DNA from: Marinobacter pelagius
GTDB taxonomy: Bacteria > Pseudomonadota > Gammaproteobacteria > Pseudomonadales > Oleiphilaceae
NCBI RefSeq assembly: GCF_003315345.1
Contig: NZ_QNRO01000009.1
Location: forward strand, 1-64,000
Direction: 5' to 3'
DNA length: 64,000 bases
Part shown: one piece after another, positions 30,177 through 42,079 of the stretch
How positions within the stretch are numbered: position 1 is the stretch's first letter
Layout of the letters: each line of letters starts with the position of its first letter
Made by a program: the position numbers and the translations under genes
Notes under the pieces: generated by a model
What the model was told of the DNA's origin: nothing
The model's database searches: none
What the model saw: only the letters and a program-made list of their open reading frames with translations

Positions 30177-30253
30177 AGGGCATTTGAGGTCACAGACGAG
30201 CGGGCGTACAGTTGCATGACCTGACTGCTTTCCGTGAAGTACCTGCTCGCCCT

Positions 30254-31969
30254 ATGACCACGTTTGATCCTGCCTCTGTGCCGCGTACCGCGGACCTGGA
30301 TAATCCTCTGTATTACCTGGAAAACATGGAAACCGTGGTGCGCTGGGTGCTGGATCACCATGATGACCTGCTGACCAGATCCGAATTCCGTGTGTTGGAA
30401 ACCTTCCTCGGTCTTGAGACAGAGGAAAAAGCGCTGTTGACCCGTCTGGTGATGCGCACGGGCGAACTGTTCCGGGCGGACAAACTGGTGTATCCGGAGC
30501 TGGATTCACCGGTTTCTGAAATTCTGCACAGCCTGGTGTCGGCCGACTGGCTCGAACCGGAGCCTTTGCTCGACTTCGATGAGCTGTTCCGGCTGTTTAC
30601 CCTGGCTGAGCTCCGACCGGTCTTCGCCGATACCCTGCAAGAGCTTGGCCACAGCCGCACACTGTCCAAAGCGGCCATGAAAACGGTGTTGTCCGATCAA
30701 TTTTCCGAGGCACGGACCCTCGACCAATGGTTCGATACCGGTGAGGCCCGGGTGGTTTGTCTGCGACACATGGCGCTGTTCGACCGGATCCGATTGATGT
30801 TCTTCGGCAACCTCCGCCAGACCTGGTCCGACTTTGTGCTGGTGGAGCTGGGTTACCAGAGTTACGAGCAAGTCCCGCTGACAGCCGAGTCGAGGGCGTT
30901 TTCGCACCGGGAGGAAGTGGATTGCTACCTGGCCATGCAGGCCTGTCGGGACCAGCTTGACGAGGGGGTTCCGGCATCTGAAGTGTGGCCTCAGGTGCCC
31001 GAACCGGTGACCAACGCCTGGCTGGCGAGCCGTCGGGACCGGCTGCTGCTGGAATTGGGCCGACAGGCCGAGCGCCAGGGCGACCGGGAGCTGGCGCTGA
31101 CTGCCTGGGCCGGGAGTCAGCACCGGGAGGCCCGGCTGAAGCAGTTGCGGCTGCTGGAGCGGATGAAACGGTTTGAGGAAGCCTGGCAGATCGCAGGGCT
31201 GTGGCAGACCGAAGAATTGAGTGATGCCGAACGCCAGGGCCTGGACCGGATCCTGAAACGGCTGGCCCCGAAGGTGGGCGAGCCCAGACCGGCTCCGGTA
31301 ACCACACAGCCGATCAACGAATGGCAGGTGTCGCTACCCCGGCCGGCGGTTGGCGCGGTGGAATGGGCCGCAGCGGAACACCTGAACCGACCCGAGGCAC
31401 CGGTGGCCTATGTCGAAAACACCCTGATCAACGGCCTGTTCGGCCTGCTGTGCTGGCCGGTGATCTTCAAACCGGTGCCCGGTGCTTTTTTCCATCCTTT
31501 CCATACCGGCCCCGCCGACCTGACCCGGGAGGATTTCGTGACGCGCCGCCGGTCCGATTTCGAGGCCTGCTTCGTGACGCTGAGCGATGGTGGTTACCGA
31601 CAGCGCATCCTGGACACTTGGCATGACAAGCAGGGGCGCGCCAATCCGTTTGTCATCTGGCCGGCCCTGTCCAAGGATCTGGTCGAGCTGGCCCTGGAGT
31701 GCATCCCGGCGGAGCACCTGGCGGCCATGTTCCGGCGCCTGCTGCTGAATGTGAAGGAGCATCGCAGCGGCTTCCCGGACCTGATCCAGTTCCACCCGCA
31801 GCGTTCGGACGATGAATCACGATATGAAATGGTGGAGGTGAAAGGCCCGGGTGACCGGCTGCAGGATCACCAGCGCCGATGGCTGGATTTCTTTGCCCGG
31901 GAGGGTATTCCCGCCAGTGTCTGTTACGTTCGTTGGGACGAGGATTCCGGCGTCGGGAGCAGTGAATGA
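30254..31969 (+). CDS. FAN1-type nuclease with VRR-NUC domain
   Basis: About 571 aa if the ATG at 30254 (MTTFDPASVPRTADLDNPLYYLENMETVVRW...) is used; an ATG at 30212 would add 14 residues and neither has a strong ribosome site. An alpha-helical N-terminal and middle region precedes a C-terminal VRR-NUC PD-(D/E)xK domain with the metal/catalytic residues in FPDLIQF (about 507) and MVEVKGPGDRLQDHQRRW (about 526-542). FAN1 proteins are structure-specific 5'-flap nucleases and 5'-3' exonucleases that unhook DNA interstrand crosslinks. It overlaps the next gene by 4 nt (ATGA), implying a shared pathway with that helicase. Confidence 0.9.
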   Translation: MTTFDPASVPRTADLDNPLYYLENMETVVRWVLDHHDDLLTRSEFRVLETFLGLETEEKALLTRLVMRTGELFRADKLVYPELDSPVSEILHSLVSADWLEPEPLLDFDELFRLFTLAELRPVFADTLQELGHSRTLSKAAMKTVLSDQFSEARTLDQWFDTGEARVVCLRHMALFDRIRLMFFGNLRQTWSDFVLVELGYQSYEQVPLTAESRAFSHREEVDCYLAMQACRDQLDEGVPASEVWPQVPEPVTNAWLASRRDRLLLELGRQAERQGDRELALTAWAGSQHREARLKQLRLLERMKRFEEAWQIAGLWQTEELSDAERQGLDRILKRLAPKVGEPRPAPVTTQPINEWQVSLPRPAVGAVEWAAAEHLNRPEAPVAYVENTLINGLFGLLCWPVIFKPVPGAFFHPFHTGPADLTREDFVTRRRSDFEACFVTLSDGGYRQRILDTWHDKQGRANPFVIWPALSKDLVELALECIPAEHLAAMFRRLLLNVKEHRSGFPDLIQFHPQRSDDESRYEMVEVKGPGDRLQDHQRRWLDFFAREGIPASVCYVRWDEDSGVGSSE

Positions 31970-34212
31970 AGGCGGCGGTGCGTACCCTGTGCGAGTTTGC
32001 CGCCCGGGCCGGGGACCTGGACTTCCGGTACACCCCGGCACCCTCCTCCGAGGAGGGCATTGCCGGCCACCAGGCCATCCAGTCCCGCCGTGGCTACGGT
32101 TACAAAAGCGAGTATTCACTGACCGGTGAATGCTTGGGAATAAGGCTTTCCGGAAGAGCGGATGGTTATGATCCCCATCGTGGCCGGCTGGAGGAAATCA
32201 AGACCCATCGGGGCGACCTGGCCCGGGTGCGGGAACACCAGCGGGCGCTGCATCGGGCCCAGTTACGGGCCTACGGTGCGCTGCTGTGCCAACAGGAAGA
32301 CCTGAAAAAAATCGAGCTGGTGCTGGTGTACTACGACACCGGTCGGGACAAGGAAAGTCTGGTTGCCGAAACCGCCCATGCCGATGAGCTCTGGCAGGAA
32401 CTTGAGGGCCTGTGCCGGCAATTCCGTGCCTGGGCCGAGCAGGAAGAGCATCACCGGGAACAGCGTAATGCCGCCCTCGCCCGGCTGAACTTTCCCTTTG
32501 CCGACTTCCGGCCGCGCCAGCGGCAACTGGCCGAAACCGTCTACAAGAATGCCATGACCGGCGGCACCTTGTTGCTCGAGGCGCCCACCGGCCTGGGCAA
32601 GACCCTGGGCACACTGTTTCCGGGCCTGATGGCCATGGCCCGGGCCGACCAGGACCGCCTGTTCTATCTGACCTGCCGCAATACCGCCCGGCAACTGGCT
32701 CTGGACGCTGTGGATAAACTCAGGGCTGCCCAGGACGAGTCTGTTGACTGGTCGCTCAGGGTGCTGGAACTGGTGGCAAAGGACGACGCCTGCGAGCACC
32801 CGGACAAGGCCTGCCACGGGGACTCCTGCCCGCTGGCGAAGGGGTTCTTCGATCGGCTGCCGGATGCCCGGGCCGAGGCAGCCCAGTCCGGGACACTCAC
32901 CCGGGCCGAACTGTCGCGTATTGCTGCGGGCCATGATATCTGTCCCTATTTTCTGGCCCAGGAGATGGCCCGCTGGAGTGACGTGGTGATCGGCGACGTC
33001 AACCGGATGTTTGACCAGTCCGCCCTGCTCCACGGCCTGGTTCGCCAGAACCAGTGGCAGGTCTCGATCCTGGTGGATGAGGCCCACAACCTGGTGGACC
33101 GGGCCCGGGGCATGTACTCGGTAACGCTTGAACAGCAGCGACTGTTGCGGGTAAAGAAAACCGCCCCGAAGGTGCTGAAGAAGGCACTGGACCGCACCGC
33201 GCGCGCCTGGCAAACCCTGATCCGGGACCAGGATGTGGACACGGCTGTGCCGGTGTTTCTCGAGACCTTGCCGTCGAGTCTGATCGGCAGCCTGCAGGGG
33301 CTGGTCTCCACCCTGACCGATTATCTGGCGGACAACCCGCCGGATCTGGCGCTGCAGGAACTGCTGTTCGAGAGTGTCGGCTTCATGAAGCTGGCGGACA
33401 GCTTCGGTGATCACTCCCTGTGTGAATTCCGGCGCTCCGGTCGTGGCCGGGCCACACTCACCATCCAGAACCTGATCCCGGCGGACTTCCTGCGCGAGCG
33501 GTTTGCCGCCGCGGGCCCGGTGTTGTTGTTCTCGGCCACCCTGAGCCCCGGCATCTACTACCGGGATCTGCTGGGTCTGCCGGAAACCAGCGCTTTTACC
33601 TCCCTGCGCAGTCCGTTCAGCGCCGATCAGCTGCAGGTCCGTTTCACGCCCAGGATCAGCACCCGCCAGGCGCACCGGGAGGCATCGCGGGCGCCGATAG
33701 CGGAGATCATTGCCCGTCAGTTCCGGGAGCAGCCGGGTCATTACCTGGCGTTCTTCAGCAGTTTCCAGTACCTCCGTGCGGTCAGCGAAACCCTCGCCCA
33801 ACAGGCACCGGATATACCCCAGCGTTGCCAGGCGCCGGGCATGAGCCAGGCCGAGCGGGAGGCCTTCCTGGCGGAGTTCCGGCAGCCGGAGCCCGGTGTG
33901 GCGTTTGCCGTGCTCGGCGGCGTGTTCAGCGAGGGTATCGATTTGCCGGGCGAGCAACTCATTGGAGCTTTCGTGGCGACCCTGGGGCTGCCGCCGTTCG
34001 ATCCCTGGCACGAAATACTCAAGGATCGTTTACAGGAACGTTTCGGTACGGGCTATGACTACACCTACCTGATACCGGGCCTTCGGAAAGTCGCCCAGGC
34101 CGCCGGCCGGGTGATCCGAACCCCCGAGGATCGGGGCGTGATCTGGCTCATCGACGACCGGTTTACGCGCCCGCAGGTGCGGAACCTGCTCCCCCATTGG
34201 TGGTTTGTTTGA
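31966..34212 (+). CDS. Fe-S XPD/DinG-like DNA helicase with N-terminal PD-(D/E)xK nuclease domain
   Basis: 748-aa fusion. Residues about 1-130 carry a RecB/Cas4-like nuclease core: GRADGYDP (D66), LEEIKTH (E77, K79) and a following Gln/Tyr helix (HRAQLRAYG, near 97-104). Residues 180-740 form a Rad3/XPD-type superfamily 2 helicase with Walker A EAPTGLGKT (205-213), four cysteines of the predicted 4Fe-4S cluster (C276, C283, C288, C326), VDEAHNLVD, and C-terminal helicase motifs including GVFSEGIDLPGEQL and QAAGRVIRT. The enzyme is predicted to translocate 5'-3' on single-stranded DNA and to cut DNA. Coupling to the FAN1-like nuclease suggests repair of crosslinks or branched DNA; the exact role is inference. 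Confidence 0.88.
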   Translation: MKAAVRTLCEFAARAGDLDFRYTPAPSSEEGIAGHQAIQSRRGYGYKSEYSLTGECLGIRLSGRADGYDPHRGRLEEIKTHRGDLARVREHQRALHRAQLRAYGALLCQQEDLKKIELVLVYYDTGRDKESLVAETAHADELWQELEGLCRQFRAWAEQEEHHREQRNAALARLNFPFADFRPRQRQLAETVYKNAMTGGTLLLEAPTGLGKTLGTLFPGLMAMARADQDRLFYLTCRNTARQLALDAVDKLRAAQDESVDWSLRVLELVAKDDACEHPDKACHGDSCPLAKGFFDRLPDARAEAAQSGTLTRAELSRIAAGHDICPYFLAQEMARWSDVVIGDVNRMFDQSALLHGLVRQNQWQVSILVDEAHNLVDRARGMYSVTLEQQRLLRVKKTAPKVLKKALDRTARAWQTLIRDQDVDTAVPVFLETLPSSLIGSLQGLVSTLTDYLADNPPDLALQELLFESVGFMKLADSFGDHSLCEFRRSGRGRATLTIQNLIPADFLRERFAAAGPVLLFSATLSPGIYYRDLLGLPETSAFTSLRSPFSADQLQVRFTPRISTRQAHREASRAPIAEIIARQFREQPGHYLAFFSSFQYLRAVSETLAQQAPDIPQRCQAPGMSQAEREAFLAEFRQPEPGVAFAVLGGVFSEGIDLPGEQLIGAFVATLGLPPFDPWHEILKDRLQERFGTGYDYTYLIPGLRKVAQAAGRVIRTPEDRGVIWLIDDRFTRPQVRNLLPHWWFV

Positions 34213-34372: not shown

Positions 34373-34765
34373 ATGAACAACACGGATCTCGTTTTCCAGA
34401 GTTATGGACGTTGCTGCCGCAAGGATGAATTTTTCGTCGATTTCTACGACTTTTTCATGTCCAGCTCGGACACCATCCGCAACCGCTTCCTGAAAACCGA
34501 CATGGAAGCCCAGCGCCACCTGCTCCGAAACGGCATCATGCAGCTGATCCTGCACGCCCGAGGCATGTCGGACCGCAAGCTGAAAGCCCTGGGTGAGAGC
34601 CATAACCGCAACCACTACGACATCAAGCCGGAGTGGTACACGCTGTGGCTGGAGGCCCTGCTGAAAACCGTTCGCCAGCACGACCCAGACTACACGCCAG
34701 AGCTGGGCAAGGCCTGGCGTGACGTTCTGAACCCCGGGATAGACCTTATCCGCGGGGCTTACTGA
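34373..34765 (+). CDS. Single-domain globin
   Basis: 130-aa protein with a globin-like pattern: FYDFF in the B helix region, RHLLRNGIMQLI (E helix) and GESHNRNHYDIKPEWYTLWLEALL, in which the first His is the likely proximal heme ligand. No flavin or NAD domain is attached, so it is not a full flavohemoglobin. Possible roles are NO or O2 chemistry, or redox sensing; none is shown here. It is convergent with sqr, ends 10 nt from it, and the upstream 160 bp contain a GTTAC-TTT-GTAAC palindrome at 34221-34233. Confidence 0.8.
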   Translation: MNNTDLVFQSYGRCCRKDEFFVDFYDFFMSSSDTIRNRFLKTDMEAQRHLLRNGIMQLILHARGMSDRKLKALGESHNRNHYDIKPEWYTLWLEALLKTVRQHDPDYTPELGKAWRDVLNPGIDLIRGAY

Positions 34766-34775
34766 GCATGAGCCC

Positions 34776-36035
34776 TCACCCCCGGGGTGCGGGCTTCGCC
34801 AGCCATTCATGACCCTTCAGCATGCCGTGCCAGTAAAGGCCCGGCAGCTGCTTGGCCTTCAACCACCAGGCCGCACGCGTTGCCTTGGTGCCATCGTTGA
34901 TCCACTTCGGGAAGCTGGGCTGCAGCTTGCCTCCATAGCCGAACTCCGCCAGCACGATCCGGCCGTTCTCTACCGTCAGCGGGCATGAACCGTAGCCCAG
35001 ATAGGCCGCCTTCAGAGGTTGGTTGCGTATGGTTGCCAGCAGGTTTTCCGCGACCACCGGCGCCTGTTTGCGTACGGCTGCCGCGGTCTTGGCATTGCCG
35101 GTACCACTGGCATCCCCGAGGCCGAAGATATTGGCAAAACGCTTGTGGCGCAGGGTGTCGTCTTCCAGATCCAGCCAGCCGCCCTCATTGGCCAGGGGAG
35201 ATTCCCGGACAAATTCCGGCGCACGCTGCGGGGGTACCGCGTGTAGCATATCGAAACCGACCTCTTCATCCCGGGTGTTGCCCTCGGAATCGGTCATGCG
35301 GAAAGTGGCTTTCCTGGCCGGACCGTTCACAGCCACCAGATTACTCTGGAAATTGACATCGATGCCGTATTTCTTGATGTAGGACTCCAGCGCCGGCACG
35401 TAATCGGGAACGCCAAACAACACCGCTCCAGCGTTGTGGAACTGGATATCGATGTCCTTCAGCACGCCCTGCCGGAGCCAGTGATCGGAAGAAAGGTACA
35501 TGGCTTTCTGGGGGGCGCCGGCGCACTTGATCGGCATGGGTGGCTGGCTGAACAGCGCCCGGCCATGCTTCAGCCGCTGCACGGTTTCCCAGGTGTAGCT
35601 GGCCATCCCTTCCCGGTAGTTTGAAGTCACGCCGTTCTGGCCGAGCGTTTCCTCAAGGCCCTCGATGGCGCCCCAGTTCAGTTCGAGGCCGGGAGCAAGT
35701 ACCAGGGTCTTATAGGTCATCCAGGAGCCGTCCGCGAGCTGGATACGGTTCTGTTCCGGTTCCACGGAGAGAACCTTTTGCTGATACCAGCTGACGAACG
35801 AGGGCATGACCTCTTTCATGGGTCTGGAGGTCACTTCGGGGCGAAAGACGCCACCGCCAACCATGGTCCACCCCGGCTGGTAATGATGGGTGGAGGAAGG
35901 CTCCACCACCGCTATATCGAGGGAGCGGTCCCGCTTGTGAAGACTTGACGCTACCGATATACCGGCGGCACCGCCACCGACAATCACGACGGTGTGTTTT
36001 TTATCGGACTCCCGTGGGACTGAATTCAAACTCAT
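34776..36035 (-). CDS. sqr: Sulfide:quinone oxidoreductase, type II
   Basis: Membrane-peripheral FAD enzyme that oxidises H2S to persulfide or polysulfide and passes electrons to the quinone pool. The start is ATG 36035 (MSLNSVPRESDKKHTVVIVGGG), 419 aa; a longer frame to 36152 runs through the promoter region. The FAD-binding Rossmann motif VVIVGGGAAGIS is at 16-27. The two redox cysteines expected in type II enzymes are visible: C171 in IKCAGAPQK and C351 in GYGSCPLT. It is divergent from persulfide dioxygenase, the usual partner that removes the persulfide product. An FNR/ANR box sits about 50 nt upstream. Confidence 0.93.
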   Translation of the reverse strand: MSLNSVPRESDKKHTVVIVGGGAAGISVASSLHKRDRSLDIAVVEPSSTHHYQPGWTMVGGGVFRPEVTSRPMKEVMPSFVSWYQQKVLSVEPEQNRIQLADGSWMTYKTLVLAPGLELNWGAIEGLEETLGQNGVTSNYREGMASYTWETVQRLKHGRALFSQPPMPIKCAGAPQKAMYLSSDHWLRQGVLKDIDIQFHNAGAVLFGVPDYVPALESYIKKYGIDVNFQSNLVAVNGPARKATFRMTDSEGNTRDEEVGFDMLHAVPPQRAPEFVRESPLANEGGWLDLEDDTLRHKRFANIFGLGDASGTGNAKTAAAVRKQAPVVAENLLATIRNQPLKAAYLGYGSCPLTVENGRIVLAEFGYGGKLQPSFPKWINDGTKATRAAWWLKAKQLPGLYWHGMLKGHEWLAKPAPRG

Positions 36036-36084
36036 GCCTTGAACCTCTCTGTTTGTCATTGTTAGAGCAACTGCCTGGCCGCAG

Positions 36085-36098
36085 TTGATATTGATCAA
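36085..36098. promoter_or_regulatory. FNR/ANR-type binding site upstream of sqr
   Basis: TTGATATTGATCAA matches the FNR/ANR consensus TTGAT-N4-ATCAA perfectly. Its centre is about 57 nt upstream of the sqr ATG. If it acts at -41.5, transcription would start near 36050 and leave a leader of roughly 15 nt carrying the AGAGAGG ribosome site. Confidence 0.7.
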
Positions 36099-36116
36099 AT
36101 AGTAGCAAACCTGTGG

Positions 36117-36130
36117 GTATAACGTTATAT
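36117..36130 (+). promoter_or_regulatory. Shared sulfur-locus element, copy A
   Basis: GTATAACGTTATAT contains the 10-bp palindrome ATAACGTTAT. It is followed by CG and ATTGA plus TATA-rich sequence in the same order as in copy B (minus strand, upstream of the rhodanese gene). A binding site for a common regulator is proposed. Confidence 0.5.
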
Positions 36131-36314
36131 CGATTGAATATATCCCACTCATGCTACATGCAGATCAAATTAGTCTTCAGCTATCAAAAAAAGATAATCC
36201 GATAGTCTTTGAGAATTTATGGCATGAGCTAAACCTATTTGAAGTGTTAGTAAGGATAGGAATAACCTAATAACAAAAAGGGAAAACGCACTTATCAATT
36301 GAAAGGAGGGTTCT

Positions 36315-37223
36315 ATGAAGACCTTCAGATTGTCCGCTTCCCAAGGCTCTGCATCCCCGGACGTTGCGGGGTTTTTCGATCCGCGCACGTTCAGTGTGCA
36401 GTATGTGGTCAGCGATCCTGCAAGCCGTCAGTGTGCGATCATCGATCCAGTGCTGGATTACGATGAGAAATCCGGGGCCACCGCCACTCACCATGCCGAT
36501 CAGTTACTCGACTACGTGCGTGAGCAGCGTTTTGATGTGCAGTGGATTCTTGACACCCATCCCCATGCCGACCACTTTTCGGCAGCCCAGTATCTCAAGG
36601 GTAAGACTGGGGCACCCACCGCCATCGGTGGCTACGTGACAGACGTACAGGAGCTCTGGAAGGGCATCTACAACTGGCCCGATTTCCCGGCGGACGGACG
36701 CCAGTGGGACCAACTGTTCCGTGCCGGCGATGAATTCGCCATCGGCGAGCTGAAGGGCCGGGTGCTGTTCTCGCCCGGGCATACTCTGGCATCGGTAACT
36801 TATGTGATCGGTGACGCCGCCTTCGTCCACGATACCCTGTTCCAGCCGGATTTCGGCACGGCCCGGGCGGATTTTCCGGGGGGCGATGCCCATCAGCTCT
36901 GGGATTCGATTCAGGAGATCCTGTCATTGCCGGAAGAGACCCGTTTGTTCACCGGCCACGATTACATGCCTGGTGGCCGGGAACCGCAGTGGCAAAGCAC
37001 GGTTCGCGAACAGAAGGAGGCGAACAAGCACCTGGCGGGTACCAGTGAAGAGGCCTACGTGGCGTTGAGAAACCAGCGCGACAGCGAATTGCCCATGCCC
37101 AAGCTGATCCTGCACGCCCTGCAGGTCAACACTCGTGGAGGGCGATTGCCGGAACCGGAGAGTAACGGCCGCCGATACCTGAAAATTCCCCTGGATGCTT
37201 TGGAAGGTGCAGCCTGGGACTGA
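36315..37223 (+). CDS. pdo: Persulfide dioxygenase-type MBL-fold hydrolase (ETHE1/Blh family)
   Basis: 302-aa metallo-beta-lactamase-fold protein. THPHADH (81-87) is the metal-binding signature, with later ligands in SPGHTLAS, HDTLFQPDFGTARADF and GHDYMPGG. This spacing is that of persulfide dioxygenases (ETHE1, PDO, Blh), mononuclear Fe(II) enzymes that oxidise glutathione persulfide to sulfite. Pairing with sqr supports the assignment: SQR makes persulfide, PDO oxidises it. GGAGG precedes the ATG and a textbook terminator follows at 37249. Confidence 0.9.
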   Translation: MKTFRLSASQGSASPDVAGFFDPRTFSVQYVVSDPASRQCAIIDPVLDYDEKSGATATHHADQLLDYVREQRFDVQWILDTHPHADHFSAAQYLKGKTGAPTAIGGYVTDVQELWKGIYNWPDFPADGRQWDQLFRAGDEFAIGELKGRVLFSPGHTLASVTYVIGDAAFVHDTLFQPDFGTARADFPGGDAHQLWDSIQEILSLPEETRLFTGHDYMPGGREPQWQSTVREQKEANKHLAGTSEEAYVALRNQRDSELPMPKLILHALQVNTRGGRLPEPESNGRRYLKIPLDALEGAAWD

Positions 37224-37248
37224 ATCCCAACCGGTTTCACAACCCCTT

Positions 37249-37274
37249 GCCGGGCCTTCGGGCCCGGCTTTTTT
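37249..37274 (+). terminator. Rho-independent terminator after pdo
   Basis: GCCGGGCC and GGCCCGGC form a perfect 8-bp stem with a TTCG tetraloop, followed by six T residues. Confidence 0.95.
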
Positions 37275-37380
37275 GTGCCTGGTTTATAGCCGAAAGTGAC
37301 TTTGTCACTGAGTGATCGGGATCTGCCGCTTATAGTTAAAATGCGAAATCATCGTAGAACCCGTCAAGGAGGCAATAGCC

Positions 37381-37824
37381 ATGATCAGAAAACTCAAGGT
37401 ACTGGGCCTGACAGCCCTGCTCGTCTGTGTGCCGTTTGTTGCGCAGGCTGACAATCACAAGAAAACCGTTGATGAGGTCCTGGTGATTCTCTCCAGCGAC
37501 TCGCTGCAGACCCAGGGCATGGCCATGGTGCTGTCCAATACCATGGCGGAGCAAGGCGCGAAGGTGAATGTCCTGCTGTGTGACAAGGCCGGCGATCTGG
37601 CTCTTAAATCTTACGAGGCCGAGCCCCTGAAGCCGAAAAACGTGACTCCGGGCCAGATGCTGCGCGGCTTGTTGAAGAACGGCGGCAGTGCCAAGGTGTG
37701 TGCCCTGTACCTGCCCAACAGCGAGAACACCAAGGATGACCTGATCGAAGGTGTCGGCGTCGCGATGCCACCGGAGATGTCTGGCCAGATGCTGAATCCC
37801 GCGATGCGCACGTTCACTTTCTGA
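37381..37824 (+). CDS. Exported DsrE-family protein
   Basis: 147 aa with a clear signal peptide (MIRKLKVLGLTALLVCVPFVAQA, cleavage near QA-DN). The mature part has the DsrE/F-like fold pattern: VLVILSSDSLQTQGMAMVLSNTMAEQGAKVNVLLCDKAGDLAL, then VCALYLPN. DsrE-type proteins carry sulfane sulfur on a conserved cysteine; a candidate is the Cys of LLCDKAG. A periplasmic location would let it hand sulfur to the periplasmic rhodanese or the octaheme cytochrome nearby; that link is inference. A 15-bp palindrome AGTGAC-TTT-GTCACT lies 72-86 nt upstream of the ATG. Confidence 0.82.
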   Translation: MIRKLKVLGLTALLVCVPFVAQADNHKKTVDEVLVILSSDSLQTQGMAMVLSNTMAEQGAKVNVLLCDKAGDLALKSYEAEPLKPKNVTPGQMLRGLLKNGGSAKVCALYLPNSENTKDDLIEGVGVAMPPEMSGQMLNPAMRTFTF

Positions 37825-37892
37825 GCCATGAAACGGTGCGTCGGCGCAGTATGCCGGCGCATCCTTCACAGAACAGGGAGACCAGAGACGTA

Positions 37893-38855
37893 ATGACCGA
37901 GATCCAGCCTTCTCGCTTGCAGAATTTCCCGATTTCCTGGTTTGCCGTGGTCATGGGGATGACCGGGTTCACCATTGCCTGGCACCGGGCCGAAGTTCTT
38001 TTTGCCTTGCCGCTGAAGACCAGCCCGTTACTGCTTGGCCTGACCATCATTATCTTTCTTGTTCTGGCAGGGTTCTACCTGGCCAAGACGGTCAAGTACC
38101 CGGATAGTGTCAAAGCCGAATTCGGTCACCCGGTAAAGCTCAACTTCTTCCCCACCATATCCATCGGCCTGATGCTTTTGAGCATTGCAGTGCTACCCTA
38201 CAGTGACAAGGTCTCCCTTGTATGTTGGGTGGTCGGCGCGCTCCTGCACCTGGCGTTCACCCTCTATGTGTTGTCTGTCTGGTTGCACCACACCCACTTT
38301 GAGATTGCCCACATCAATCCGGCCTGGTTCATACCGATTGTCGGCAACATCGTGGTACCCATTGCCGGGGTTCAGCACGCTTCACCCGAGATTTCCTGGT
38401 TCTTCTACAGTATTGGTCTGGTGTTCTGGGTGGTGCTGTTGACCATTATTTTCTACCGGATGTTCTTCCATAACCCGCTCCCGGCAAAGCTGCTGCCCAC
38501 GCTGTTTATCCTGATTGCACCGCCGGCGGTCGGGTTCATTTCCTGGCTCCAGCTGACCGGCGAGGTGGATGCCTTTGCCCGGATCCTTTACTACAGCGCT
38601 ATCTTCCTGACCCTGATGCTGATGACCCAGGTCCGGCGTTTCCTGCGGCTGGAATTTTTCCTGTCGTGGTGGGCATATTCGTTCCCGATGGCAGCCATTA
38701 CCATTGCCACCTTTGCCATGTATCACCAACTTGAGCTGGCGTTCTTCAAGGGGCTGGGTGTGGTATTGCTGGCTCTGTTGACAGGGCTGATTGTGGTACT
38801 GGCGGGCAAGACCGCCCAGGCCGTCAGGCGCCGGGCGGTCTGTATCGAGGACTGA
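37893..38855 (+). CDS. SLAC1/TehA-family anion channel
   Basis: The start is ATG 37893 (MTEIQPSRLQNFPISWFAVVMG), 320 aa, with GGGAG upstream. About ten transmembrane segments are visible, beginning with the family hallmark FPISWFAVVMGMTGFTIAW and containing NPAWFIPIVGNIVVPIAG and APPAVGFISWLQL. The family (TehA, plant SLAC1, yeast Ssu1 sulfite exporter) conducts small anions through the inner membrane. Next to SQR, PDO and DsrE genes, export of sulfite or another sulfur oxyanion is an attractive inference. It follows dsrE by 68 nt on the same strand. Confidence 0.9.
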   Translation: MTEIQPSRLQNFPISWFAVVMGMTGFTIAWHRAEVLFALPLKTSPLLLGLTIIIFLVLAGFYLAKTVKYPDSVKAEFGHPVKLNFFPTISIGLMLLSIAVLPYSDKVSLVCWVVGALLHLAFTLYVLSVWLHHTHFEIAHINPAWFIPIVGNIVVPIAGVQHASPEISWFFYSIGLVFWVVLLTIIFYRMFFHNPLPAKLLPTLFILIAPPAVGFISWLQLTGEVDAFARILYYSAIFLTLMLMTQVRRFLRLEFFLSWWAYSFPMAAITIATFAMYHQLELAFFKGLGVVLLALLTGLIVVLAGKTAQAVRRRAVCIED

Positions 38856-38876
38856 AGTATTGCCGGTCTACGGGGA

Positions 38877-39473
38877 TTACTGGTCAAGATCCTCGTAGCC
38901 GGTCACCATCGGTTTGATGTGGCTGGTCAGGGTGTGGCCCATGGTGGTCATGTAAACGTGGGCAATGATGAACACCAGCATGGCGAAGGCCGCTCCGGTG
39001 TGTACCAGCGCCACCCACTCCAGTTCCAGGGCACCGGCGAGGGTTGCCGGCCAGTCGTTATAGAACAGGTAGAGCAGCCCGGTCACCCAGATCACCGGTG
39101 AGATCACCACCTTGAAGAACAGGTAAGCCAGCCGTTGCAACGGGTTATGCTTTGCCCTGGTGGTCTTGCGGTAGGGGTGCTCGGCATCGGTGAAAGTACC
39201 AATCAGGTAATAGTGGATGACGGCAAACAGGCCGTTCTTCGTGGGTATGTACTGGCGCCATTCACCGGTGGTGAAGTGCCAGAAGATGGCAAACAGCCAG
39301 AGCACGATCAGGGCCCAGGCGGCCAGGGTGTGGATCCGGGCGGCGTCGCCGAACCCCAGCCAGGAATGGCTGCCGTGGATCTCGAACCCGGTGATCAGCA
39401 GGGTGAAGATCAGCAATGCCTGGCACCAGTGCCAGAAGCGCTCGAAGCGTTTATAGATCATTACCCGGCTCAT
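38877..39473 (-). CDS. Membrane cytochrome b (b561/NapC-partner type)
   Basis: 198-aa integral membrane diheme cytochrome b with about four helices and candidate heme-ligand histidines in RFWHWCQALLIFTLLITGFEIH, RIHTLAAWALIVLWLFAIFWHF, and LVHTGAAFAMLVFIIAHVYMTTMGH. Such subunits carry electrons between the quinone pool and a periplasmic partner. Its ATG overlaps the stop codon of the octaheme cytochrome gene (ATGA), so it is the likely membrane electron partner of that enzyme. Confidence 0.9.
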   Translation of the reverse strand: MSRVMIYKRFERFWHWCQALLIFTLLITGFEIHGSHSWLGFGDAARIHTLAAWALIVLWLFAIFWHFTTGEWRQYIPTKNGLFAVIHYYLIGTFTDAEHPYRKTTRAKHNPLQRLAYLFFKVVISPVIWVTGLLYLFYNDWPATLAGALELEWVALVHTGAAFAMLVFIIAHVYMTTMGHTLTSHIKPMVTGYEDLDQ

Positions 39474-41077
39474 GAGTGCCCCCTCCCCTTGAAGATCATC
39501 CGTGCGATGGCGTGGAGAATCACGCCCAGCAGGGTCAGCGCGACGGCCAGCCAGCCAAGCCGGTCAAGCCAGATGTTGCTGTCATGCCCGGGCATGTAGA
39601 TGCCCCCGACCCCGGCCAGCCGGCTCTCGGCCGCGTGGCAGGAGCCACAGTCCAGCGCCTGCTCCGCCGGCGGCACCATGTGGGCAATGGGCCAGTACAT
39701 CCGGGTTTCGACAAAGTCGAACTGGCCACTGAACGGCATTCCGGACATCTCGCTACCCGCCTCCAGGGCTTTCTGCCAGTTGAAGTTGCTCCACAGGGAG
39801 GTGTCATCCGCCCCAAAGACATGGGTGACCAGCAGGGTGCCCAGCTCGGTATCGTAAGGCTGTTTGCCGCGCATCAGCTTGAACGGCCAGATCCGGGAAT
39901 CCGGGTCGTCCGGGCCACCGTCAATGCGGTTGATATTGATGGGCGGGTTGGACAGATCCAGTTTTTCGTCGATCAGGGTGTACTCAACGGTACCGTCGAA
40001 CCAGGCATAATGCGGCACCACGTCCTCGCCGTGGCGGAAGTTGCCTTTCTCGCTCAGGTAACTGACGTGGCCGTTCTCGTCGTATTCGGTGATGGGGTTA
40101 CCATCCTCATCCAGCTTGCCGGCCGTGGACCAGTCCCACCACATCTTGGTGGGGACGCCGCCCCGGGCGAATTCCGGCACATGGCAGGTCTGGCAGGCCA
40201 GGGTATCCACATGGTCGTTGAGTTTCTGCTGCTCGTGCGGGCTGGCACCATGACAGGACTCGCAGGTGGTTCGGGTCATGTCGGTGTGGCCCGGGACGTC
40301 AATGCCGAGGGTATCCTTGGCTTCAACCTGGTAACGGCTGCCGGATACGTTGTGGCCCCAGGTGGAGTGACAATCAGAACAGGCGAAATCGAGACCTTCA
40401 GGGGACATGTGAACGTCCAGTGCCTTGGGCGGATTCACCAGGGATGAGTCCAGATCACCGTGCTTGACGCCATCACCGCCACCGCCATAGAAATGGCAGC
40501 TGCCGCAAGTGGCCCGGCCGGAGGGACCGACATTCTGGGCAATATTGGTCAGATCGGGCGGCTGCACCAAGTTGCCACTGCCTTTCGGCCATTCCCGGGA
40601 TACGTAGGTGGGGTGCCCGGCCAGGGTCGGAAACTTCCAGTAGTCGCCGGTGGTGTCGTGGCAGACCAGGCAATCCACCGCCGAGTCTGCCTGGGGAGGT
40701 GGCTGGTTCATGTCTTCCCAGCCATAGCCGACGTGGCAGGAGGTGCAGCGGGCCTCGTTGGTCACCGGCATTCCACAGAAACTGTTGATCACCTTGCTCT
40801 TGCCCAGTTGCTGGCCGGTTTCCTGGTGGTCGTAGAGCCAGGTCCAATGGGTGGTGTCCTTCACCTGGTCGGCCGCCTCGGTGTGGCAGCCCAGGCATGC
40901 TTCGGTGACTTCTGTGGCGTCTTCAAAGGGGCCTTTGAGCGCTTCGAACTTGCTGTGGTCCGCGGTGGGGGGTGATCGTTCCGCTCCCTGGGCTACAGAA
41001 ATAACTGCCAGAGCCAGCACGGCCAGAAAAGCTTTGGCTATGCCCGGCCTGAAATAGACACATCCTGTTGTTACCAT
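39470..41077 (-). CDS. Octaheme c-type cytochrome, tetrathionate reductase family (OTR-like)
   Basis: 535 aa from ATG 41077 with GGAGG just upstream (an in-frame GTG at 41089 is less likely). A signal peptide ends near residue 31. Eight CxxCH heme sites are visible: CLGCH (61-65), CTSCH (111-115), CLVCH (136-140), CGSCH, CSDCH, CESCH, CQTCH and CGSCH. A C-terminal helix (LGWLAVALTLLGVILHAI) anchors the protein in the membrane. The order and spacing resemble the Shewanella octaheme tetrathionate reductase, which also acts on nitrite and hydroxylamine. Lysines in GKSK (92-95), between hemes 1 and 2, are candidates for that enzyme's unusual Lys heme ligand. The physiological substrate here is unproven; the sulfur context favours a sulfur compound. 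Confidence 0.9.
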   Translation of the reverse strand: MVTTGCVYFRPGIAKAFLAVLALAVISVAQGAERSPPTADHSKFEALKGPFEDATEVTEACLGCHTEAADQVKDTTHWTWLYDHQETGQQLGKSKVINSFCGMPVTNEARCTSCHVGYGWEDMNQPPPQADSAVDCLVCHDTTGDYWKFPTLAGHPTYVSREWPKGSGNLVQPPDLTNIAQNVGPSGRATCGSCHFYGGGGDGVKHGDLDSSLVNPPKALDVHMSPEGLDFACSDCHSTWGHNVSGSRYQVEAKDTLGIDVPGHTDMTRTTCESCHGASPHEQQKLNDHVDTLACQTCHVPEFARGGVPTKMWWDWSTAGKLDEDGNPITEYDENGHVSYLSEKGNFRHGEDVVPHYAWFDGTVEYTLIDEKLDLSNPPININRIDGGPDDPDSRIWPFKLMRGKQPYDTELGTLLVTHVFGADDTSLWSNFNWQKALEAGSEMSGMPFSGQFDFVETRMYWPIAHMVPPAEQALDCGSCHAAESRLAGVGGIYMPGHDSNIWLDRLGWLAVALTLLGVILHAIARMIFKGRGHS

Positions 41078-41136
41078 GATTCCCTCCACGCTCGGGGTCT
41101 CCCCGGTACAGCATAGTCCATTCTCAGAACAGGGCA

Positions 41137-41158
41137 GGCCAGAGCCCGGGCTCTGGCC
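41137..41158 (-). terminator. 22-bp perfect palindrome between rhodanese and octaheme cytochrome genes
   Basis: GGCCAGAGCCC and GGGCTCTGGCC form a perfect palindrome just after the rhodanese stop codon. There is no T-run on the minus strand. It may terminate or stabilise the rhodanese transcript. Confidence 0.45.
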
Positions 41159-41190
41159 ATTGGTGCCCTATCCAGGGTCTGACGTTATGA

Positions 41191-41736
41191 TCAGGGACGA
41201 TAGATCTTGTCCGGATTGATATCCATGGACCAGGGCAGACCGGAATTCTGCCAGCCGTTCACCACCCGAAATCCCTTCATCTTGCCTTCTTTGGCGCTGC
41301 TGCCCTGGAAGCCGTGGTCAATGTATTTCACATTGGTGAAGCCCCGCTCCAGCAGGTACTCGGCGCTGGGCTTGCCACGGGAGGAGCCGGAGCGACACAT
41401 GGTGATGATCAGGGCATCCCGGTCCAGCCCCTTGGCTTCGAGCGCCTTGTCGACATCCGCGACGAAGTCCGGATTGGTATCCATGGCGAACCTGGCTTTC
41501 TCTTCATTGAAGCGGGAGCGGTCCACCAGTTTGAATGGAATGTTGGCATCCACCGTATCGGTGAAACCGATGAACATGATCTCGACGGGGTCCCGGACAT
41601 CAATGAACAGGATCTCATCGCCCTGTTCCTGAGTCATTTTAAAGGTTTCCTCGGGGGTAACAGACAGCGCTTCTTCTGCCTGCGCCTGGAATGCCAGACC
41701 AAAAGTGATGAGCAGTGACAATAACAGGGTTTTCAT
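41191..41736 (-). CDS. Periplasmic rhodanese-like sulfurtransferase
   Basis: 181 aa with a signal peptide (MKTLLLSLLITFGLAFQAQA, cleavage before EE). A single rhodanese domain has FIDVRDPVE and the active-site loop CRSGSSRG with C114, so persulfide transfer should be possible. It is on the same strand as, and upstream of, the octaheme cytochrome gene, with a palindrome between them. A periplasmic sulfur carrier role alongside the DsrE-like protein is inferred. The upstream region carries copy B of the shared ATAACGTTATA element. Confidence 0.92.
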   Translation of the reverse strand: MKTLLLSLLITFGLAFQAQAEEALSVTPEETFKMTQEQGDEILFIDVRDPVEIMFIGFTDTVDANIPFKLVDRSRFNEEKARFAMDTNPDFVADVDKALEAKGLDRDALIITMCRSGSSRGKPSAEYLLERGFTNVKYIDHGFQGSSAKEGKMKGFRVVNGWQNSGLPWSMDINPDKIYRP

Positions 41737-42079
41737 GGAGGCCTCTCCCAGGAGCGGTATCGCTCATTTCGGATTTGCGAAGACAGGTACAGCCCGGATA
41801 CGGATACTGAAATCCTAGACCAGATGTCAGAACCCGTCCGGGGTTCTAACAAGAACAGAAACGAAAGTTGATGCCGGTCAACGGCTGTGACGATCCGAAA
41901 CCGGTAGCCTTTCGATTCACGGCCGAGTCAGATTACCCGCGAGATTTCCTTATATCAATACGAGTATAACGTTATTCCATTAAGGTTTTATGGCAGGGAT
42001 GTCTAGCCGTTTTGTTTCCGAAACCCGGGAGAGCGCATATATTGTCCACAGGAGACAGAGTTTTCCCTGAAAGGCCCAT
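41737..42079. promoter_or_regulatory. Intergenic region upstream of the rhodanese and PLD-family genes
   Basis: 343 bp between divergent genes. It holds a hairpin AGAACCC/GGGTTCT at 41829-41847, a small stem GAGCG/CGCTC at 41752-41765 next to the rhodanese start, and the shared sulfur-locus element at 41964-41975. No additional ORF is convincing. Confidence 0.45.
41964..41975 (-). promoter_or_regulatory. Shared sulfur-locus element, copy B
   Basis: On the minus strand this reads ATAACGTTATAC, followed by TCG and ATTGATATA. The 11 bases ATAACGTTATA and the following CG...ATTGA order match copy A upstream of pdo. The distance to the start codon of the gene downstream in the same orientation is similar (about 190 nt for pdo, about 230 nt for rhodanese). 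Confidence 0.5.

Follow-up and report, generated by a model that had tools for sequence, protein, structure and literature searches.

Conserved association of a membrane-anchored octaheme cytochrome and its cytochrome b with exported sulfur-carrier candidates in Marinobacter

The 4.1-Mb genome of Marinobacter pelagius carries a conserved set of sulfur and redox genes with a firm core, an octaheme c-type cytochrome of the OTR family encoded next to a b561-type cytochrome b. Within the genus this set is real and its conservation goes beyond chance; the partnership of OTR with sulfur carriers, an exported rhodanese and an exported DsrE-fold protein, is specific to Marinobacter. The features are listed in Table 1 by their positions in the window, the whole 64,000-nucleotide stretch of DNA that was analysed. 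A first-pass annotation of this DNA had named sulfide:quinone oxidoreductase (SQR), persulfide dioxygenase (PDO), DsrE, SLAC1, cytochrome b, octaheme and rhodanese genes, and every one of them was confirmed in its place.

Table 1 Features of the gene set and its surroundings in the window
Feature	Position	Strand	Evidence and remarks
Single-domain globin-like protein	34373..34765	+	PF00042 E=1.7e-5; convergent with SQR
Type II sulfide:quinone oxidoreductase (SQR)	34776..36152	-	Human SQOR 6oi5/6mp5 E~2.5e-89
Persulfide dioxygenase (PDO), MBL fold	36315..37223	+	PF00753; NF040641 dioxygenase half
Intrinsic-terminator-like hairpin and T run, end of PDO unit	37249..37274	+	GCCGGGCC-TTCG-GGCCCGGC then TTTTTT
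Exported DsrE-fold protein, candidate sulfur carrier	37381..37824	+	Predicted fold; C67 and C107
SLAC1/TDT anion channel	37893..38855	+	Member of PF03595, 214 bits, E=4e-63
b561-type cytochrome b	38877..39473	-	PF01292 E=6e-25
Octaheme c-type cytochrome, OTR family, C-terminal membrane helix	39470..41089	-	TIGR04315; PDB 1SP3
Exported rhodanese	41191..41736	-	PF00581; CRSGSSR active loop (C114)
FNR/ANR-type box	41868..41881	-	TTGACCGGCATCAA; 1 mismatch to TTGAT-N4-ATCAA; 145 bp upstream of rhodanese start

The genes are apparently transcribed as separate units rather than one: SQR alone on the minus strand, PDO alone on the plus strand, DsrE-SLAC1 on the plus strand and, converging on the latter, a putative minus-strand operon of rhodanese, OTR and cytochrome b, in which the OTR stop overlaps the cytochrome b start by 4 bp. 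The region containing the hairpin behind PDO (37224-37290) gave a fold z of -3.9, and ATG 37893 is a likelier start for SLAC1 than GTG 37836. The globin-like gene, which formed the left edge (34373) of the range first annotated and was absent from its title, was dropped as a cluster member, as it was missing from all other loci of the genus bar one near-identical Marinobacter MAG (L209, 98%); it is probably outside the system. Further left, at 30212-34212, a FAN1-like VRR-NUC nuclease gene overlaps a DEAD_2/Helicase_C_2 helicase gene, and several Marinobacter conserve this pair as a chromosomal flank of the cluster.

The window octaheme scored 626.8 bits against a curated TIGR04315 cut-off of 375, which places it in the OTR family, and matched the Shewanella oneidensis OTR structure 1SP3 with E=6e-109. 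It shares with the latter eight CXXCH motifs, invariant in the OTR alignment A3, and two further invariant residues, C105 and K209, which align with C64 and K153 of 1SP3; we take K153 to be the lysine ligand of catalytic heme 2 and C64 to be its adjacent cysteine. The two proteins differ in that the Shewanella OTR is soluble and periplasmic, whereas that of the window is membrane-anchored and has a dedicated cytochrome b, as in nearly all other OTR loci examined. A C-terminal helix was present in every row of A3 except the Shewanella chain. This helix contains a nearly invariant histidine (H526 in the window OTR), possibly a functional residue at the interface with cytochrome b. The latter is a putative quinol-oxidising partner of OTR; it belongs to the general b561 family only, its score with the thiosulfate-reductase-type (PhsC) model NF011582 being 104.5 bits against a cut-off of 204. 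Given the helix and a cytochrome b gene adjacent to OTR at all 15 Marinobacter loci sampled, the octaheme can be regarded as membrane-anchored with a cytochrome b of its own, as had been suggested. The nearest named OTR locus is that of the Marinobacter sp. KhW MAG, with an OTR 95% identical.

Of the two carrier candidates, the rhodanese bears its active-site cysteine in a six-residue loop of the type CRSG[SA]xR, with C114 invariant in 16 sequences of the genus. At five loci (L028, L029, L108, L117, L120) an AhpC/TSA peroxiredoxin gene (PF00578, PF10417) adjoins the rhodanese gene. The DsrE-fold protein has a signal-like N-terminal sequence ending in AQA, and its C67 and C107 are invariant in alignments A1 and A4. 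Its PF02635 score of 14 bits (E=0.057) is below the gathering score of 22.7, and it is therefore named here for its fold rather than as a Pfam DsrE member. An AF2 model built on a wider alignment reached a pLDDT of 93, and its best PDB matches by Foldseek were YchN, DsrE and DsrF (1jx7, 3pnx, 2hy5; TM 0.71-0.77); the wider alignment was needed, since the genus-only alignment gave a pLDDT of 60 and meaningless PDB matches. In four Marinobacter genomes (L103, L106, L111, L114) a gene for a Crp/Fnr-family regulator adjoins that of DsrE. The SLAC1 protein, whose PDB relatives are plant SLAH3/SLAC1 and TehA, is judging by its sequence a candidate sulfite exporter.

SQR aligned with human SQOR over both catalytic-cysteine regions (KCAGAPQ, SCPL), as expected of a type II enzyme, and PDO was closest to PDO and PDO-like MBL proteins (4ysk/4efz, E~1e-89, and also 4chl), in agreement with its assignment.

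Conservation was followed in 61 Marinobacter genomes and, at the level of the locus, in 15 OTR loci. OTR was found in 16 of the genomes, rhodanese in 20 and full-length DsrE in 23. Fisher tests, which count related genomes as independent and thus ignore phylogeny, so that their p-values overstate confidence, associated OTR with rhodanese (15 of the 16 OTR genomes, p=3e-9), with DsrE (again 15 of 16, p=9e-8) and with cluster-type SQR (11 genomes, p=1.6e-4). The proposal that two exported sulfur-carrier candidates accompany the octaheme was thereby upheld, and so was the expectation that the neighbours are conserved together: beside the invariably adjacent cytochrome b, rhodanese was near OTR at 14 of the 15 loci and DsrE at 12, and SLAC1 at six. 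SQR was near at ten, one a fragment and one a 65% paralogue, and an orthologous PDO at four. SLAC1 occurred in six of the 61 genomes, all of them OTR-positive.

Gene order varies between loci; L032 and L033, for instance, have DsrE and SLAC1 interposed between rhodanese and OTR. As linkage is kept despite this, we argue that selection holds the set together. Pairwise sequence distances covary among rhodanese, OTR, cytochrome b, DsrE and SLAC1 (r=0.68-0.88), and those of SQR showed no covariation with the other cluster genes (r=0.08-0.33, and 0.14-0.33 with these five); SQR is a loose associate of the OTR set. The parts can also be separated. Several Marinobacter genomes have rhodanese and DsrE without OTR, and in G140 and G004 only remnants of OTR and cytochrome b persist beside rhodanese and DsrE. 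Deletion scars of OTR-cytochrome b lie at L103:7502-8029 and L120:9237-9605, where rhodanese and DsrE were kept, and in G128 an insert of about 1.2 kb interrupts OTR, with cytochrome b left intact (L115:8983-10229). OTR-cytochrome b and rhodanese-DsrE thus each occur apart, and neither strictly needs the other. This modular presence and absence, the several transcription units and the uncorrelated SQR distances are what one would expect if independent sulfur-stress genes had merely gathered in one variable chromosomal spot with no joint action, an explanation that we consider improbable in view of the genes that stay together through rearranged orders and covary in distance.

The putative rhodanese-OTR-cytochrome b operon is preceded by an FNR/ANR-type box. 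With up to two mismatches, such a box was found within 220 bp upstream of the rhodanese at all 26 Marinobacter rhodanese loci, 19 of them with at most one mismatch, for which 0.022 boxes are expected per 300 bp. The control genes of the Marinobacter loci, those for the helicase, the VRR nuclease and glyS, had no such box. The divergent PLD gene has the same intergenic site as the rhodanese gene, a site precedes DsrE in a few loci only, and the regions upstream of SQR and PDO contained none with at most one mismatch. PDO requires O2 and the box of the OTR operon is of an anaerobic type; the two halves are therefore probably active under different conditions. The first-pass view of a single pathway from sulfide to the octaheme consequently stands in part: the neighbours are conserved and OTR does come with cytochrome b and two exported carriers, but SQR and PDO sit in separate units without the box and are often missing beside OTR, and the SQR distances do not covary.

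A second motif, palindrome ATAANNTTAT, occurs upstream of rhodanese at 14 of the 26 loci (L022-L035), mostly with the FNR-type box about 24 bp upstream of it; it could be a promoter -10 element or an operator. In the window it is placed elsewhere, and it also occurs near the SQR start. An operator ATAACGTTAT common to the rhodanese promoter and the region of SQR and PDO was considered; as the palindrome does not recur upstream of SQR and does so upstream of PDO in one other locus only, we claim no common regulon.

The FNR-type motif is also used by NO-responsive DNR/NnrR regulators and is common to regulators of denitrification. Together with the presence of NarG in 13 of the 16 OTR genomes, and with the substrates of the Shewanella OTR, which include nitrite and hydroxylamine as well as tetrathionate (PMC4484225), this would suit an octaheme whose main function is to reduce or detoxify nitrite or hydroxylamine, with incidental sulfur neighbours. 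We consider such a role rather unlikely: OTR and NarG show no significant association (p=0.13), the tight partners of OTR are sulfur carriers, and SoxY beside OTR recurs in unrelated lineages.

We propose instead, with about even confidence, that the set encodes a quinol-linked, anaerobically expressed reductase of tetrathionate or other polythionates with a periplasmic sulfane-sulfur relay, complemented by SQR-PDO for sulfide when oxygen returns. At low oxygen the rhodanese-OTR-cytochrome b operon would be expressed, and cytochrome b would oxidise quinol and pass the electrons to the membrane-anchored periplasmic OTR. At the Lys-ligated heme beside the conserved cysteine, OTR would reduce tetrathionate (or another polythionate) to thiosulfate, from which the exported rhodanese may take the sulfane sulfur, leaving sulfite. 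The exported DsrE-fold protein could then carry the released sulfane sulfur on cysteine, and sulfite may pass the inner membrane via the SLAC1 channel. Once oxygen is present, SQR and PDO would convert the resulting sulfide to sulfite in the cytoplasm. We infer the substrate, the direction, the hand-over of sulfur from rhodanese to DsrE and sulfite as the substrate of SLAC1. That the membrane-bound octaheme reduces tetrathionate is probable; the potential of the tetrathionate/thiosulfate couple is sufficiently high to allow quinol as the donor. An OTR-family enzyme of Beggiatoaceae, encoded near thiosulfate-reductase cytochrome b genes, reduces tetrathionate at 93 umol/min/mg (PMC6449678).

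The same genes might also work in the oxidative direction, with sulfite from SQR-PDO exported by SLAC1 and joined to the sulfane sulfur of rhodanese/DsrE as thiosulfate, which OTR would oxidise to tetrathionate with electrons passing to quinone via cytochrome b. The whole arrangement of the window fits such a scheme, as do the co-occurrence of SQR with OTR (p=1.6e-4) and the restriction of SLAC1 to OTR-positive genomes, but it appears unlikely: the FNR-type box indicates anaerobic expression whereas PDO needs O2, OTR often lacks SQR and PDO as neighbours, and ubiquinone accepts electrons from thiosulfate poorly. Moreover, with SoxA and a diheme cytochrome that is TsdA-like, the window genome has other routes for thiosulfate/tetrathionate chemistry including oxidation; it also encodes NarG (L160 and L161, i.e. 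G000 C15 and C26; G000 C14). We also asked whether OTR substitutes for Sox or TsdA; co-occurrence gave no support for this idea, which was abandoned (p=0.7 for SoxA-like proteins, and a weakly positive association for TsdA-like ones, p=0.04).

Beyond Marinobacter we compared 80 named OTR loci of alpha-, beta- and gammaproteobacteria and Chloroflexi. Cytochrome b directly follows OTR in 78 of them, and in the other two the contig ends there; no other universal neighbour was found. FNR-type boxes upstream of OTR outside Marinobacter were again enriched, both as exact matches (9 of 75 against a 1.2% background, p=3e-7) and with at most one mismatch (25 of 75 against 5.9%, p=6e-13). OTR-cytochrome b is usually without rhodanese or DsrE of the window type there, and the full gene set was not found among the loci examined outside the genus. 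Another 24 gammaproteobacterial genomes contain relatives of the rhodanese; their enrichment with OTR is mild (p=0.003), and they are not beside it. In two of these genomes a SLAC1 gene adjoins the rhodanese relative. Denitrificimonas caeni and one betaproteobacterial MAG have DsrE relatives in the vicinity of OTR. Within 10 kb of OTR (L209-L288) we also noted PF02579 (Nitro_FeMo-Co) genes at 11 of the 80 loci, DUF302 genes at 12 and TlpA-like genes at 10, partly in MAGs of sulfur oxidisers. In two other lineages SoxY directly follows OTR-cytochrome b. It is conceivable, if doubtful, that the true substrate of OTR-cytochrome b is sulfane or thiosulfonate sulfur bound to a periplasmic carrier, rhodanese/DsrE here and SoxY elsewhere; the pair would then respire protein-bound sulfur with electrons from quinol instead of reducing free tetrathionate.

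Search of the open literature found no named system with the gene content of the window. Sulfide oxidation by SQR and PDO in heterotrophs resembles it in that a type II SQR and a PDO lie side by side, but in the window this pair is a loose part of the set, and we know of no octaheme or exported DsrE in that pathway. BOGUAY_2386 of Beggiatoaceae, for which tetrathionate activity has been measured, shares with the window octaheme the OTR family, a sulfur context and a thiosulfate-reductase-type cytochrome b gene downstream, whereas its other neighbours encode thiosulfate/polysulfide reductase subunits in place of rhodanese, DsrE and SLAC1 (PMC6449678). The otr-soxY loci of lucinid symbionts likewise have OTR beside a periplasmic sulfur-carrier gene, the carrier being SoxYZ there and rhodanese and DsrE in the window (PMC11237559). 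The Shewanella OTR interacts with a small tetraheme cytochrome that itself receives electrons from CymA (PMC4484225).

It has been unclear what OTR does in the cell, since the model enzyme, a soluble protein, uses sulfur as well as nitrogen compounds. Our comparison suggests that the family usually takes the form of a membrane-bound unit of two genes that is linked to quinone and in many cases controlled by an FNR-type regulator. The Marinobacter unit has defined sulfur carriers linked to it, and this provides a tractable marine host in which its substrate and direction can be tested.
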